From an uncultured Candidatus Saccharibacteria bacterium (lineage in GTDB: Bacteria; Patescibacteriota; Saccharimonadia; Saccharimonadales; Saccharimonadaceae), in contig CAMMYO010000005.1 of assembly GCA_946527885.1 (NCBI GenBank), positions 1 through 33,446 of the forward strand: 33,446 nt of DNA, given 5' to 3'. The notes beneath the pieces were generated by a model. The model was given only the letters and a program-made list of their open reading frames with translations. It was not told the origin of the DNA and ran no database searches. Shown here in pieces: positions 15,188 to 28,417 of the stretch. Numbering within the stretch: the first letter of the stretch is position 1; each line of letters begins with the position of its first letter. The position numbers and the translations under genes are program-made.

Positions 15188-15766
15188 TTAGTTATTACTA
15201 GCGCAAAGCACGGCATTATTTTCCGCCAAATATACTAAAGCATAGTTGCCATCACCTGCAGAATGCTGCACCGTTTCTTCATTGTCGCCGCACTTGCTCT
15301 GCACATAAATATTCACCACATTTTCCCCGTCCGCTTGCGCGCTCGAATCAGACAAGACATTCAACTCTTCGGAGGCAGAATAATCCACTGCCTTAATCCG
15401 AAAACGATACAGGCTACCATTCGGATCCGTGAAATACTTGCAACCTTCCTCGCTGTCGCAAGTTTCATTATCATCATTCATGCCATCATCGATGTATCTA
15501 TTCACGAACCCTGAACTCAATTCCCAAGTCGAGCCACCGCCATCCCAAGCCGGAATTTCACGCAAAGCATACGGATTCGTAGCGCCATTTCTCTTGCGAA
15601 ATTCTTCAAAGGCCGACAAAAAACGATTCAAGTCGGCTTTGCGCTCGGTATTTCTTTGCGCGCGTTGCAAAGCTGGCAAACCCAGAAAAACCATCAAAAA
15701 AATCAGACCAGCGATCGCCAAAACCAGCACTACTTCAATAATCGTAAAACCCTTACGCTTACTCAT
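15188..15766 (-). CDS. type IV prepilin 1
   Basis: MSKRKGFTIIEVVLVLAIAGLIFLMVFLGLPALQR class III signal; DPNGSLY; C-terminal Cys pair. Confidence 0.92.
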   Translation of the reverse strand: MSKRKGFTIIEVVLVLAIAGLIFLMVFLGLPALQRAQRNTERKADLNRFLSAFEEFRKRNGATNPYALREIPAWDGGGSTWELSSGFVNRYIDDGMNDDNETCDSEEGCKYFTDPNGSLYRFRIKAVDYSASEELNVLSDSSAQADGENVVNIYVQSKCGDNEETVQHSAGDGNYALVYLAENNAVLCASNN

Positions 15767-15781
15767 ACTATCATTATACAC

Positions 15782-15810
15782 AAAAAACGAGCCCGAAGGC
15801 TCGTTTTTAC
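15782..15810 (-). terminator. intrinsic terminator between pilins
   Basis: ACGAGCC-CGAA-GGCTCGT with flanking A and T tracts. Confidence 0.8.
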
Positions 15811-15823
15811 AATCAAGCAATTA

Positions 15824-16423
15824 CTAGTTACTGATACAGTAGAGAGAACCACCTTCCATCGTATAGAAGAATGCGGTATCACCTTCACCGTTGGTTGGAA
15901 CAACCGTACCTTCAGTGTCAGCGCAGCGAGCAAACTTAACGACATAGATGATGTTATTAACTGCAGTTGGGCGAGTAGTGCCGGCGGTATCGGTATCGGT
16001 ATCGGTACCGGCACTAAATACTTCAGCATTACCACCGGCACCAGCAGTCAAAGCAGTAGCATGAAGCATAGTGAAGCTGTATGGGTTACCGTTCGGATCG
16101 GAAAACTTACTGTTGTCGTTTGTACCGCCGCGAATATAGCGCTGAATATAGTTAGCAACCTCTCGATGCGTAGCATTGTTCTCGAGATTTGGGTCGTTAT
16201 CCGTATCAAAGGCCAAGAATGGGGTTTGATTACCGTTATTTGTACGATAGTTATTCATCTCGGTCATGAAGCGAGAAATATCGTTTTCGCGCTGAGTGTT
16301 GCGCTGGCTTCTCTGCAACGCTGGCAATGCGATGAATACCATCAAGAAGATAAGGCCGGCGATAGCAAGCACCAAGACGACCTCGATGATCGTAAAGCCT
16401 TTTTTGTTGTTATTTTTAACCAT
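15824..16423 (-). CDS. type IV prepilin 2
   Basis: MVKNNNKKGFTIIEVVLVLAIAGLIFLMVFIALPALQR; DPNGNPY; C-terminal Cys pair; AGGAGT RBS. Confidence 0.92.
   Translation of the reverse strand: MVKNNNKKGFTIIEVVLVLAIAGLIFLMVFIALPALQRSQRNTQRENDISRFMTEMNNYRTNNGNQTPFLAFDTDNDPNLENNATHREVANYIQRYIRGGTNDNSKFSDPNGNPYSFTMLHATALTAGAGGNAEVFSAGTDTDTDTAGTTRPTAVNNIIYVVKFARCADTEGTVVPTNGEGDTAFFYTMEGGSLYCISN
15986..16009. repeat. hexanucleotide microsatellite (GGTATC)3GGTACC inside prepilin 2
   Basis: ggtatcggtatcggtatcggtacc; encodes the GTDTDTDTAG segment. Confidence 0.9.
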
Positions 16424-16495
16424 GTTTTCCATACTCCTATATTTTATTATGGTTATGTTATCTATTATTATAAGCACTATTTCAGGATTGTCAAC

Positions 16496-16521
16496 AAAAA
16501 ATGCGCATTTTTGCGCATTTT
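16496..16521 (-). terminator. intrinsic terminator between pilins
   Basis: AAAAATGCGCA-TTTT-TGCGCATTTTT. Confidence 0.75.
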
Positions 16522-16522
16522 T

Positions 16523-17095
16523 CTAATGCGTATCGTAACACAACGTCGCCCCGCCCTGTTGTATATAGACGAAAGCGGTATCGGCCGGGCCATCACCAAC
16601 CATTAATTGCATATCGGAACCACCACAGATTGCATTTGCGAACACTAGAATTCTACGATTCGCAATATCATTATCGACGTCGCCCCTAATCTCGACTACA
16701 TCTCTCACGTTGCCTGTGAGCGCAGGACGAACATTTACGCCGTACGCACTACCACTAGGATCTGTAAAACCAGCACCGCAATGATTGAAATCCGCATGAA
16801 TTTCGCCTGAGGCCGCATGCGAATCATGGCTATGCTCGTCGCAATCTATATCAATATACTCATGGATAAAAGTGTCTACCGACGCTACATCTCTGAATGG
16901 ATTTCTATTGCCATTCGCAGCACGATACTTAATCGACTGTGCCGCAAAACGCTGCAAATCATTGCGTCGTTGAATTGTTCTCTGCTGCCTTTGCAACGCC
17001 GGCATTGCAACAAAGACCATTAGGAAGATAAGTCCAGCAATCGCCAAAACGAGCACCACCTCGATAATCGTAAAACCCTTTTTATTCTTTGCCAT
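16523..17095 (-). CDS. type IV prepilin 3
   Basis: MAKNKKGFTIIEVVLVLAIAGLIFLMVFVAMPALQR; DPSGSAY; C-terminal Cys pair. Confidence 0.92.
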   Translation of the reverse strand: MAKNKKGFTIIEVVLVLAIAGLIFLMVFVAMPALQRQQRTIQRRNDLQRFAAQSIKYRAANGNRNPFRDVASVDTFIHEYIDIDCDEHSHDSHAASGEIHADFNHCGAGFTDPSGSAYGVNVRPALTGNVRDVVEIRGDVDNDIANRRILVFANAICGGSDMQLMVGDGPADTAFVYIQQGGATLCYDTH

Positions 17096-22406: not shown

Positions 22407-23021
22407 ATGGATAATAAAGCTTATCTTGATCAAATCGCCGTCAAAGGCAAAAATGTCGAGAAAAAACCAATTCTTACTCCAGGCCTTCTCAAAATAATCG
22501 GGCTTGGTCTTCTCGTCATCGTCACTCTGCTCGCTCTTGTTGTCGTCGTTTCAAACGCCAACAAACGCGATTACGCATCGTACGAGTCACTCTATCTTCG
22601 TACGACCAAACTTGCCGACAAAAAGTCACCAATTCACACCTATACCGAAAAACTCAAATCATCCGAATTGCGCTCTTGGTCATCCCTTCTCAGCGCTTCG
22701 CTCGATCAACTCAATGCTGGTCTCGCTAGTCAGCTCAAAAACGAAGGCGCCGATGTCACGAATATCTCCGCCGAAGTCAAAACTAGCGAGAATGCGCTCT
22801 TCTCGAGCTACGAATCAGCCATCGAAGATGCCTACTTGAGCGGCATGCTCGACCGCACTTACGCTTACGAGACTTCCTATCAGATTTCGCTCATCATCTC
22901 CGCCGAAGAAGCTGTCATTAGTCAATCAACCGACGGGACCCTCAAAGGAACGCTCGAAAAAAGCATCGAGGATCTCGAAATTCTCGAAGAAAAATTCCTC
23001 GACTATAGCAACAAGCACTAA
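22407..23021 (+). CDS. hypothetical membrane-anchored protein
   Basis: 204 aa, single TM helix near the N-terminus, followed by terminator. Confidence 0.7.
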   Translation: MDNKAYLDQIAVKGKNVEKKPILTPGLLKIIGLGLLVIVTLLALVVVVSNANKRDYASYESLYLRTTKLADKKSPIHTYTEKLKSSELRSWSSLLSASLDQLNAGLASQLKNEGADVTNISAEVKTSENALFSSYESAIEDAYLSGMLDRTYAYETSYQISLIISAEEAVISQSTDGTLKGTLEKSIEDLEILEEKFLDYSNKH

Positions 23022-24263: not shown

Positions 24264-24309
24264 ATTATTCTCCCTTTATTTGCCCTTACTATACCATATT
24301 TGCATGCAT

Positions 24310-24338
24310 TTGACAAAACACCTAAACAATGCTACAGT
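24310..24338 (+). promoter_or_regulatory. near-consensus sigma70-type promoter
   Basis: TTGACA-N17-TACAGT. Confidence 0.75.
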
Positions 24339-24383
24339 ATTTTCACTAACTCTTCTGACCCATACAGAAAGGGGTGTTCTTTA

Positions 24384-24935
24384 ATGACTATCGAGATGAC
24401 AAGCATCAACAAGTATGAGCCAATCAATCTCGATGCGATTGATAAGTTCTGGAAGCAGACAATGCGCTGCACTGGACCCGACGTTTTCCGAATTATGCAC
24501 TTTTCGACACCCGGAGATGCAACCCTCATTCAGTGGAGTCGTCTCCCGTGCAAAGGCGAGAAAGCCGTCCGCAAAGAGGACATTACGGTACCGCTCGCCG
24601 TTATCGACAAGGCCCTCAAGAAAAACGCCGCTAAGGCTCTCGAGCAGATCAGCAAACCGTTCCACTTCTACGAAATGGCCAGCAACAGATACGTCTTGGT
24701 CTACGCTCAAGCCAAGGACGGCATCATCGGCGCCGCTTGGTACAATGATGGCGACCGCCACAAGGCAAAAAGTCTTTGTTATTTTTTGCTTTACGCGCTC
24801 GGTGTCATCAATGTTAGCTACGACGACATCCTCTGGGACGCAACCTTCACTAGACTGCCATTCCGACGCCGCTTCGACCGCAACATCGCCGACGACATCC
24901 TGGAAGAATTCGACCTCATGCCGCCCCAGGACTAA
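24384..24935 (+). CDS. orphan hypothetical protein (183 aa)
   Basis: ATG after AAAGGGG RBS; flanked by promoter and terminator; no recognised domain. Confidence 0.75.
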   Translation: MTIEMTSINKYEPINLDAIDKFWKQTMRCTGPDVFRIMHFSTPGDATLIQWSRLPCKGEKAVRKEDITVPLAVIDKALKKNAAKALEQISKPFHFYEMASNRYVLVYAQAKDGIIGAAWYNDGDRHKAKSLCYFLLYALGVINVSYDDILWDATFTRLPFRRRFDRNIADDILEEFDLMPPQD

Positions 24936-24939
24936 GATC

Positions 24940-24967
24940 ATCCCCCGACATTGCTCGGGGGATTTTG
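24940..24967 (+). terminator. intrinsic terminator
   Basis: ATCCCCCGA-CATTGC-TCGGGGGATTTT. Confidence 0.85.
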
Positions 24968-24985
24968 CTATCTTTTTAAAACCAT

Positions 24986-25011
24986 AAAAAAGCCCCCACT
25001 ATTGCGGGGGC
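24986..25011 (-). terminator. intrinsic terminator for 25054 gene
   Basis: AAAAAAGCCCCC-ACTATT-GCGGGGGC. Confidence 0.75.
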
Positions 25012-25053
25012 CCTGCGTGGTGGTGGATTACGAATGAATAGCGTCAAGAAACG

Positions 25054-25557
25054 TCAGGCCGCCGTGATGCCACTGAGATAATGCTTGGCAGCCACGTAGT
25101 CGCCGTTATCGATTGCCTTCTTCAGACGAGCAGCAAGCTCGAACTGGTACTCGTATAGAGCGAGAATCTGAAGAAGGCGTTCGCTGTTACAGTTAGCGAC
25201 CGCCAGCCGTATATCTGCACGAAACTGTGCGTAATCTCGCGCATCCGGGCCTTGATAGCGCCACTCGTGCGGCTCTTCCGCCATGAATTCCTCAACCTCG
25301 GCGATGATTTCGTCGGGAACTTCCTCTTCAATGTCCGCATAGCTGTCGAAATCGTCGTCGGGGTCTGCTTCTGCGCCCATGTACTCTTCTGGCATCTGTG
25401 CAGGCTCATCCAAGTATTCGTCGGGAACGAGATAGCAATGCAAGAATTCAGGAACAAGAGCGACATCGGTGACGGCATCAAAGCCATCCTCGGGCGTAAG
25501 ACCTTCAAGGCCATCCGCATAGAATTGGGGTTGGGGCTTCTTTTTTCTTCTTTTCAT
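25054..25557 (-). CDS. orphan acidic hypothetical protein (167 aa)
   Basis: CGGAGGT RBS; basic MKRRKKK N-terminus then strongly acidic centre; promoter and terminator present. Confidence 0.7.
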   Translation of the reverse strand: MKRRKKKPQPQFYADGLEGLTPEDGFDAVTDVALVPEFLHCYLVPDEYLDEPAQMPEEYMGAEADPDDDFDSYADIEEEVPDEIIAEVEEFMAEEPHEWRYQGPDARDYAQFRADIRLAVANCNSERLLQILALYEYQFELAARLKKAIDNGDYVAAKHYLSGITAA

Positions 25558-25719
25558 GATACGTACCTCCGAAATTTGGGCGTTTCGCCCATGATAAGAT
25601 GGGTAATTTTCGCTTGTCCGGAGAATTCACTCAGGACCAGCTTTTCCTCCCCTCAGAAAAAGCTGATCCCGAGCCGTAAATCCACTAAAAGTACTGCGAC
25701 TCTAGGAGCCACTACCTCC

Positions 25720-25747
25720 ACTATATCACAAACGGCGAAAAAGTCAA
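25720..25747 (-). promoter_or_regulatory. sigma70-type promoter of 25054 gene
   Basis: TTGACT-N16-TATAGT on the minus strand. Confidence 0.75.
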
Positions 25748-25795
25748 TGAATCCCTCCGTTTTAGGAGCTCGAAAAACATATTCTAAAATAATTC

Positions 25796-25824
25796 TTGAC
25801 AAACTGCAAATAAATCCGTATAAT
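25796..25824 (+). promoter_or_regulatory. perfect-consensus sigma70 promoter of 25950 gene
   Basis: TTGACA-N17-TATAAT. Confidence 0.85.
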
Positions 25825-25949
25825 ATGTATTGCTTTTAGCATTTGCACCTTATCAATGGAAAATTACCCGGAACCGGCGAAAGGTGCATTTACCTATTTT
25901 ACCGCGCCTCACAAAAGAGGCTCCGTCTCAAATTGAAAGGATTTGCCCT

Positions 25950-26678
25950 ATGAACGAAATCATTATGCGCACGCCCCAGGATCCCAAGCTGCCCGCAATC
26001 CCCACCATTGACATCGTCGAACATGTACCGACCGCAATCGGCCGCCTGCTCGACGCCGACCACCTGTCCAAGCTGCTCGCCGCAGCTGTGAGCGCGACCT
26101 GCACTAATGACGAATCCGAGCCTCTCATCCAGAAAGTTTTCGAACTGGTCGAGCTCGCGCTTTCAACCACAGAAGACTGCGACGTCTGCGAAATCCGCAT
26201 GACGCTCAAAAAGCTCATTTCTGACATCGACATGCTGCCCGAACCCAACTACGACGTCAAGGTCACGCTGAATCCGCTCATCGATGACAATCCGCTCTGG
26301 TTGCTCGCAGCCTACTCCTACTTCCACGATTGCCGCAGCCAGCTGGGCGCTGACCGAGCGGACGACATCACGCTCACCCTGCTCAATGCCACCAAGGCGC
26401 ACGGCCTCATCTATGCCGATTTCGGCAGCAGCAACGAGAAAGACATCGAGATCTCTTCTTATTTGATCGAGGTTCTGTCGGAAGAAATCCTGACACTCAT
26501 CACGCGCATCGGCATCGCTGTTTCCGACCCCGACGACGAAACAAACAACATCTTCCTTGCCGGATACTATGGCAAAAGATGGAAAGAAACTTGGAAAAAC
26601 ATCGTTACAGAAGCCATTAACTCTGCTTCCGACAACGATTTCGGCAACCCGGACGACCCCGACAATCCCGACGAGTAA
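25950..26678 (+). CDS. orphan hypothetical protein (242 aa)
   Basis: ATG after GAAAGGA; acidic C-terminus DNDFGNPDDPDNPDE; promoter, structured leader and terminator. Confidence 0.75.
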   Translation: MNEIIMRTPQDPKLPAIPTIDIVEHVPTAIGRLLDADHLSKLLAAAVSATCTNDESEPLIQKVFELVELALSTTEDCDVCEIRMTLKKLISDIDMLPEPNYDVKVTLNPLIDDNPLWLLAAYSYFHDCRSQLGADRADDITLTLLNATKAHGLIYADFGSSNEKDIEISSYLIEVLSEEILTLITRIGIAVSDPDDETNNIFLAGYYGKRWKETWKNIVTEAINSASDNDFGNPDDPDNPDE

Positions 26679-26693
26679 TTTTCCCAACAAAAC

Positions 26694-26716
26694 CCGCGCT
26701 TCGGCGCGGGTTTCTT
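26694..26716. terminator. intrinsic terminator
   Basis: AACCCGCGC-TTCG-GCGCGGGTTT. Confidence 0.85.
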
Positions 26717-28417
26717 TTACATCTTGCTTGGAATCTCAATCCCAAGCAAGCCTAGCGCATGCGATAGTACAAAATCAGCCTTCTCTACCAACCACAGACG
26801 CGCCGAGCGCTCCATATCATTCGCCTGCAAGATCGGCGTTTTTTCATAATAGCGATTCAGCGCCTGCGCCAATTCAAAACAATAACCCGCAATCCGATGC
26901 GCTTCAAGATTCTCGCCAACCGTCGCCACTAAATCTGGGAATTTCAGCAATAGGCGCAAGATGTCCTTCTCGCTCGCCCAATCGTAATCCGCAAAATCCA
27001 CTCGCTCAAAATCCGCATTTTTCTCCAAAATCCTGCGCAAACGCACGTCCGCATATTGGCAGAACGGACCAGAACAACCAGTCAGCGCAAAAATCTTATT
27101 CGGGTCATACAAAATACCCGTCTTGCGATCCGCCACGAAGTCACTATACTTAATCGCGCCTGTCGCAATCTTCGCGATATCCTCATCGCTCAAATCACTC
27201 GCGCCCGTCGATGCAAAGTTCGCCCGCACTCGCGCCTCGGCGTCATCCAACATCGCCTCGAGCAAAACTACACCCTTGCGGCTCGACATTTTCTCACGCT
27301 TGCCGTCCTCGGACACCTGATCAATCGTGCCGAACCAGATGTGAACGTTCTCGACGTCATAGCCAAGCTTCTTACCCATCGCAAAAAGCTGCTCAAAATA
27401 GAACTTCTGCTCTGCTCCCACGCAATAGATATTCTTGTCTGGATGCCATTCGCGCACGCGATAATCCATACAGGCCAAATCAGTCGTTGCATACAGCGCC
27501 GTACCATTACTTTTCAAAACCAAAATCGGCACATCGATACCGTATTCATCGAGACGGCAAATCACCGAGCCGTCATCATTCTGCTCAAACTTGCCCTCGG
27601 CAAGATATTTTTTCACGAGTTCCTTGCCAGGCTCCGCAAAGAAACTTTCACCCAACTCGTAATCTGTCGAGATACCAAGGCGCCTCATTACTTCGTGCGT
27701 ATGATCAAGCGAAATCTTCTTAAATGTTTCGGCGTATTTTACCGCCTCCGCATCTTTCGCCTCAAGCTTCTTTAGCCATTCCTGGACTTCGTCCGCCAAT
27801 TCATGCTTATCTTCAGCCGCCTCGTCCTTGAGCGCCTTCTTCATCTGGATATAAATCTCGCCCAAATCGTAAATCGTCACCTCATCGAGCGACTTACCAG
27901 AGCGCAAAAAGCCCAAAGTCCAAATACCGAACGGAGTACCCGTGTCGCCAAGATGGTTATCGGTAATCACCTTCCAACCATTCGCCTCGAGAATCTGCTT
28001 AGTAGCCCAACCCTGCGTACCTGGGCGCAAATGCCCTACCGAGTAAGGCTTTGCCATATTCGTACTCGGAAATTCCACGACCGCAACCTTACCTTCGCCA
28101 GATTTATTGCGACCGTAATCGTCCGACCAAGCCTCAGCTAGCTGTTTTTGCAGGCTCGTGCCCGAAATCTCTACATTGATAAAGCCCGGGCCAGCAATCG
28201 TAAAGACAAAACCATCGGAATCTTGACGCAGACGCTCGACAATCTCCTCCGCAATTTGACGCGGAGCCTTGCCAGCCTGTTTCGCAATACGCATCGCCGC
28301 ATTCGTCGAGTAGTCGCCCGGAATGTCCGCAGGAACATCCGCAAAATCGACTATCGCGCCGTCAATGGCGTAAAGCTCTTTGATAACTTCTGCGATTCGA
28401 TTCTTTAAGTTTTCCAT
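26717..28417 (-). CDS. argS: arginyl-tRNA synthetase
   Basis: FPSTNMAKPYSVGHLRPGTQG (HIGH-like), REKMSSRKGVVLLE (KMSK), GPFCQYADVRLRRIL. Confidence 0.95.
   Translation of the reverse strand: MENLKNRIAEVIKELYAIDGAIVDFADVPADIPGDYSTNAAMRIAKQAGKAPRQIAEEIVERLRQDSDGFVFTIAGPGFINVEISGTSLQKQLAEAWSDDYGRNKSGEGKVAVVEFPSTNMAKPYSVGHLRPGTQGWATKQILEANGWKVITDNHLGDTGTPFGIWTLGFLRSGKSLDEVTIYDLGEIYIQMKKALKDEAAEDKHELADEVQEWLKKLEAKDAEAVKYAETFKKISLDHTHEVMRRLGISTDYELGESFFAEPGKELVKKYLAEGKFEQNDDGSVICRLDEYGIDVPILVLKSNGTALYATTDLACMDYRVREWHPDKNIYCVGAEQKFYFEQLFAMGKKLGYDVENVHIWFGTIDQVSEDGKREKMSSRKGVVLLEAMLDDAEARVRANFASTGASDLSDEDIAKIATGAIKYSDFVADRKTGILYDPNKIFALTGCSGPFCQYADVRLRRILEKNADFERVDFADYDWASEKDILRLLLKFPDLVATVGENLEAHRIAGYCFELAQALNRYYEKTPILQANDMERSARLWLVEKADFVLSHALGLLGIEIPSKM

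Follow-up and report, generated by a model that had tools for sequence, protein, structure and literature searches.

A probable cis-acting leader RNA in a genus-restricted orphan gene pair between mscL and argS of Candidatus Saccharibacteria

The stretch of DNA analysed here (the window) corresponds to a whole contig of 33,446 nucleotides (nt), CAMMYO010000005.1, of an uncultured Candidatus Saccharibacteria bacterium (assembly GCA_946527885.1) whose genome comprises 930 kb in 52 contigs. In this window mscL and argS are separated by three open reading frames (ORFs), placed as an earlier, sequence-only reading had placed them: ORF1 (24384-24935, plus strand, 183 aa), ORF2 (25054-25557, minus strand, 167 aa) and ORF3 (25950-26678, plus strand, 242 aa). 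We propose, with a probability of about 0.62, that ORF1 and ORF2 form an old, genus-restricted and dispensable module accompanied by a genome-specific ORF3, and that a hairpin in the ORF2 leader acts in cis on the RNA level.

The predicted ORF2 leader extends from promoter to start codon over 156 nt (25558-25713, minus strand) and folds with -60.4 kcal/mol (z=-4.7). On this strand it begins with a 5′-terminal hairpin (25696-25712), directly followed by GUACUUUU (25687-25694), an instance of a recurrent G-N-N-C-(U/A)-U-U-(U/A) element, and by a core hairpin (25623-25680) with a 19-bp covarying stem and the apical loop AGGGGAG. The core hairpin is common to ORF2 leaders: among 23 sequences, two-sided (compensatory) changes were found at 16 of the 19 pairs, 93.6% of cells were paired (shuffles 77.2%), and covariation scored 0.599 vs 0.284 in shuffles (0/500), with slid-partner controls at or below 0.203. 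The ORF2 leader thus has what characterizes structured cis-acting leaders, i.e. a covarying helix in the transcribed leader on the sense strand, and probably represents a new mRNA element acting in cis. The sequence-only reading had assumed structured leaders for all three genes, which was borne out for ORF2; the ORF3 leader (119 nt, 25831-25949, plus strand) is not unusually structured (z=-0.9), and that of ORF1 has merely 40 nt.

A long, near-perfect inverted repeat close to a promoter could also act as DNA, either as an operator or as the end of a mobile element. However, G-U wobble pairs are frequent in the stem and the ORF2 sense strand mostly scores 15-40 bits above the opposite strand, which argues for a function as RNA rather than DNA. 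Moreover, loop conservation is one-sided, and the hairpin is constant in position and orientation, lying between the promoter and the ribosome-binding site. An action as DNA therefore appears quite improbable.

A search model of the core hairpin, R1, scored 58.7 bits on the window copy (E=3e-12 for 429 kb from the own genome) and matched 33 of 45 genomes of the genus at E<=0.01 and 32 of 45 at E<=1e-4, with no match at E<=1e-4 in 349 genomes of 60 other genera. Due to the fact that R1 was built from ORF2 leaders themselves, its matches in these leaders arise by construction, and independent evidence comes from the covariation and from the lack of matches elsewhere. At E<=1e-4 it was never seen in a genome without ORF1; G014 and G017 have ORF1 and lack the hairpin, and in G038 the match at this threshold belongs to a second copy, located upstream of another gene, the copy at ORF2 being weaker (24 bits). 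When each ORF2 protein was compared with a profile of the rest, just 18 of 27 were recognised at E<0.01 (window ORF2 included, 9e-5), so that conservation is higher for the leader than for the protein; nearly all of the 9 unrecognised ones still have the leader, and hidden ORF2 genes downstream of the hairpin were confirmed at L030 and L035.

At the Rfam gathering threshold the window gave tRNAs only; nothing matched the leader hairpin even at E values up to 10, and at a relaxed threshold only terminator stretches appeared. Like the structured cis-regulatory mRNA leaders of Rfam (Cis-reg; leader), the ORF2 leader is a conserved, covarying RNA that lies between promoter and start codon and is followed by diverged genes; unlike them, it is without Rfam match and consists of a single long hairpin with a G-rich loop, found in one genus. 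CsrA/RsmA-type leaders present GGA in a hairpin loop, and by sequence the apical loop of most ORF2 leader copies is alike in containing GGA, but the ORF2 loop is lost in a subclade and the stem is conserved in sequence too. In the literature searched we found no paper on the ORF2 leader or on orphan genes of such kind.

Each gene of the island has a near-consensus promoter (10-12 of 12 positions) and a strong terminator of GC-rich hairpin and T run, as the sequence-only reading had described. The ORF1 promoter, TTGACA-17-TACAGT (10/12; 24310-24338, plus strand), overlaps a divergent promoter-like site of mscL (24316-24288, minus strand); that of ORF2, TTGACT-16-TATAGT (10/12; 25720-25747, minus strand), has an extended -10; and that of ORF3, TTGACA-17-TATAAT (25796-25824, plus strand), is perfect (12/12). 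The terminators of ORF1 (24940-24963, plus strand) and ORF2 (24989-25014, minus strand) stand back to back, and the inverted repeat of the ORF3 terminator (26690-26713, plus strand) also serves argS on the opposite strand. The region contains nine promoter-like sites, compared with 3.5 (sd 2.0) in shuffles. For comparison, 353 genes were called on ~424 kb of the own genome by a simple script, so that calls are approximate: a promoter of at least 10/12 was found for 24%, a terminator for 37% and both for 52 genes (15%). Singly, neither signal is rare in this genome, thus it is the three genes in a row that are notable. Among relatives, 33 of 37 ORF1 genes and 26 of 29 ORF2 genes have a promoter of at least 10/12, and 28 ORF1 and 24 ORF2 genes a terminator, whereas the promoter share of flanking genes ranges from 0 to 51%. 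Where found at this threshold, the ORF2 promoter lies 144-241 nt upstream of the start codon, and the leader is long (130-200 nt) in all of these. These signals suggest high expression of the island's genes.

The pair is old. An ORF1 profile was positive in 34 of the 45 genus genomes, with divergent homologues (20-36% identity), and outside the genus gave a weak match in one genome of a family sample of 246; wide scans found ORF1 neither in viral contigs (sub-family alignment A2) nor in phages or plasmids. The carriers among the relatives are Candidatus Saccharibacteria genomes, one of them from horse faeces. In most carriers the order is argS>ORF2> <ORF1 mscL>, i.e. ORF1 and ORF2 are convergent. 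The mscL-argS slot is empty (9-65 bp) in six genomes, and in one clade (G016/G035/G008/G025) the pair was jointly relocated to a second site, which adjoins a sugar transferase gene and a metallopeptidase-like gene. Three of these genomes carry a DUF2625-type gene in the vacated slot (L081:1863-2504, L082:6295-6936, L084:4724-5356), G025 being the fourth with the pair at the second site. In the argS tree, an empty clade (G003, G023, G039) is nested among carriers and the empty state needs 3 changes; since many branches of this tree are weak and two are very long, only nested loss was drawn from it. ORF1 and ORF2 are, as far as these comparisons reach, an old, convergent and dispensable pair essentially confined to the genus. 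A second module copy in genome G012 (C9, L069) looks identical to that of G013 (C5, L070), with the same ORF2 protein and the same hairpin score, and is probably assembly contamination.

The sequence-only reading had also suggested recent acquisition, and in its strongest form all three genes would have arrived together by horizontal transfer, bringing odd codons and their own promoters. The presence of ORF3 in the own genome only, the other cargo (e.g. DUF2625) that the slot carries in relatives, and the GC content at third codon positions (GC3) would fit such an arrival: against a genome mean of 0.52 (sd 0.06), GC3 is 0.67 in ORF1 (98th percentile) and 0.72 in ORF3 (the top), so the proposed codon bias is extreme in these two, while in ORF2 (0.56, 78th percentile) it is weak. 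However, high GC3 is common to many native orphan units elsewhere in the genome, and viral, phage and plasmid collections gave no match to ORF1. ORF1 and ORF2 are syntenic across deep branches through most of the genus and one group of empty slots, nested in carriers, fits loss, so recent acquisition of this pair is unsupported; absence from close relatives and sporadic occurrence apply to ORF3 alone. A joint foreign origin of the island is accordingly improbable, and ORF3 may be young. We found no ORF3 relatives in the 45 genus genomes, the family sample or the plasmid collection, and no sequence link between ORF3 and other orphans. In the nearest relative, G005, other genes stand at the place of ORF3; the G005 slot contains a metallo-beta-lactamase-like gene (L016:6399-7112) with weak similarity to the anti-Pycsar protein Apyc1, and a similar gene occurs elsewhere in the own genome (L108:3424-4149).

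The pair changes about ten times faster than argS. In genome pairs whose argS identity reaches 85% or more (mean 89%), ORF1 averages 41% and ORF2 31% identity. The ratio of nonsynonymous to synonymous substitution rates (dN/dS) in usable comparisons, i.e. leaving out the argS comparison of L034/L062 (partial argS misaligned) and the ORF2 comparison of L021/L023 (dS saturated), was 0.09-0.13 for ORF1 and ~0.18 for ORF2, compared with 0.01-0.05 for argS, dnaG and orn, with no sign of gene-wide positive selection in ORF1 or ORF2. These ratios indicate that both are real proteins under purifying selection, loosely constrained. A membrane-anchored protein gene in the window (22407-23021) changes almost as fast as ORF1 (~42% identity where argS has 93%).

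Recognisable domains were said to be lacking in all three proteins, and indeed Pfam, NCBIfam, PHROGs and PDB-profile searches gave chance-level matches at most; PADLOC models, scanned against members of the ORF1 family, gave no match. ORF1 is apparently soluble and neutral, and the two proteins described as acidic, ORF2 (isoelectric point (pI) 4.20) and ORF3 (pI 4.22), lie at the acidic extreme of this genome. Type II toxin-antitoxin modules consist of two small adjacent genes, one of them acidic, with patchy distribution, and ORF1 and ORF2 resemble them in all these respects. A toxic ORF1 and an acidic ORF2 antidote, or an effector and its immunity protein, would moreover agree with two fast-diverging, genus-variable genes that are kept and moved jointly, and with the DUF2625 gene in the same slot of three genomes. 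However, the two genes are convergent units with separate promoters and terminators rather than a two-gene operon, neither matched a toxin, antitoxin or defence family in the searches above, ORF1 stands without ORF2 in G014 (L073), and elsewhere both genes were cleanly lost. Such a pair is thus an unlikely interpretation, and this reading and that of a recent island fit ORF1/ORF2 less well than an old dispensable module does.

Outside the ORF2 leaders, R1 gave weaker matches (E 2e-5 to 8e-3) in G037, G038, G019, G010, G001 and G039, and in the own genome at L093:15462-15519. Each of these secondary hairpins precedes another small orphan gene, with a clear near-consensus promoter upstream except in G037. 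In the own genome, many orphan genes combine a strong promoter, a terminator, high GC3 and an early G-N-N-C-(U/A)-U-U-(A/U) element in the leader. By these sequence features the island falls into a class of orphan transcription units that are strong, dispersed and made up of a single gene each, in agreement with the earlier suggestion of lineage-specific, strongly expressed orphan units, which holds as far as genus confinement, promoters, terminators and similar orphan monocistrons can indicate. Dispersed monocistrons of this kind, with promoters of 11-12/12, leaders of 80-150 nt, strong terminators and high GC3, were seen in the own genome at L097:16164-19267 (four in tandem), L094:13026-13589, L105:16982-17620, L106:11086-11634, L104:832-1836 and L102:17628-18101. 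Among 20 proteins searched against Pfam (19 of orphan type from the own genome or G005, and the DUF2625 cargo), 18 stayed below family cut-offs; the two matches above were the DUF2625 gene and the metallo-beta-lactamase-like gene of G005.

The proteins of this class, those of the island included, might be cytoplasmic proteins that the type IV secretion system of Saccharibacteria delivers into the host bacterium. Being lineage-restricted, fast evolving, apparently soluble and strongly promoted, they would suit such a role, but no secretion signal was recognised, ORF1 has no shared C-terminus, and the case is purely circumstantial. Published work calls the role of this secretion system unknown and effector delivery by it speculation (PMC11665869, PMC10633639). 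We regard delivery as a tentative possibility. What bears on protein function is the distribution, the speed of change and the strong promoters, and a role in host interaction, as the sequence-only reading had imagined, would be plausible, while one in the episymbiotic life style is a guess. As separate observations, three orphan proteins (L097:17128-17811, L097:18596-19267 and L102:17628-18101), one of them unrelated in sequence to the other two, have D/N/A-D-I-P-W as their C-terminus, similar to the tail of single-stranded DNA-binding protein (SSB), the own SSB ending in DLSEIPF; and the window contains three tandem pilin-like genes (GFTIIEVVLVLAIAGLIFLMVF; 15188-17095), one with a 12/12 promoter.

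In the old-module model that we favour, ORF1 and ORF2 would each be a strong transcription unit of its own, convergent with the other, and ORF3 a gene of the same type. A near-consensus promoter of housekeeping type would transcribe ORF2 into an mRNA with a leader of 130-200 nt, composed of the 5′-terminal hairpin, the GNNC(U/A)UU element and the long hairpin, usually with a G-rich, Shine–Dalgarno-like loop. For mRNAs that are strongly transcribed, the hairpin would most likely set translation or stability in cis, its loop being read by a factor or the ribosome, and weaker copies would do so upstream of other orphan genes of the genus. As candidate modes, the loop could pair with the 3′ end of 16S rRNA (in the own genome ACCTCCTTTCTAG) or bind a GGA-reading protein. 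The conservation, covariation, placement, co-occurrence, losses and relocation described above are read from the genomes themselves; regulation by the ORF2 leader at the RNA level and high expression are what we infer beyond them.

Several observations count against this model. One subclade (G042, G037, G019, G044) has lost the GGGGAG loop of most copies and has other, longer loops instead. Genome G039 has the secondary hairpin in the absence of ORF1 and ORF2; thus the pair is not required for the hairpin, and, as we argue, neither protein is its partner. From the window fold came the idea that the GNNC(U/A)UU element masks the ribosome-binding site, but this pairing failed a swap test in which each element was set against its own and every other site (p=0.92), which leaves a switch undemonstrated. 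Finally, the element was defined only after inspection of these leaders, so that its enrichment is a description and no test: 20 of 26 own-genome orphan leaders contain it (2.7 expected), as do 22 of 25 ORF2 leaders of relatives (4.9 expected) and 11 of 36 other strong-promoter genes (3.4 expected). The element also occurs in ORF1 leaders, close to the transcript's 5′ end and often directly after a 5′ hairpin. A wider model would join all these genes into a dispersed, genus-wide regulon of strongly transcribed orphan genes. Their leaders would have a code in common, made of the 5′ hairpin, the GNNC(U/A)UU element and partly the G-loop hairpin, and one RNA-binding factor would read it to dose proteins that act on the host bacterium. 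Such a regulon at present seems rather unlikely.

Saccharibacteria have tiny genomes and live on other bacteria, and the genes behind this way of life are mostly unnamed. A leader that outlasts its protein in conservation is unusual in itself, and the ORF2 leader would be a tractable RNA for testing. Moreover, a genus-specific leader on strongly promoted, fast-evolving and dispensable genes would define a gene set in these bacteria and predict its shared regulation.

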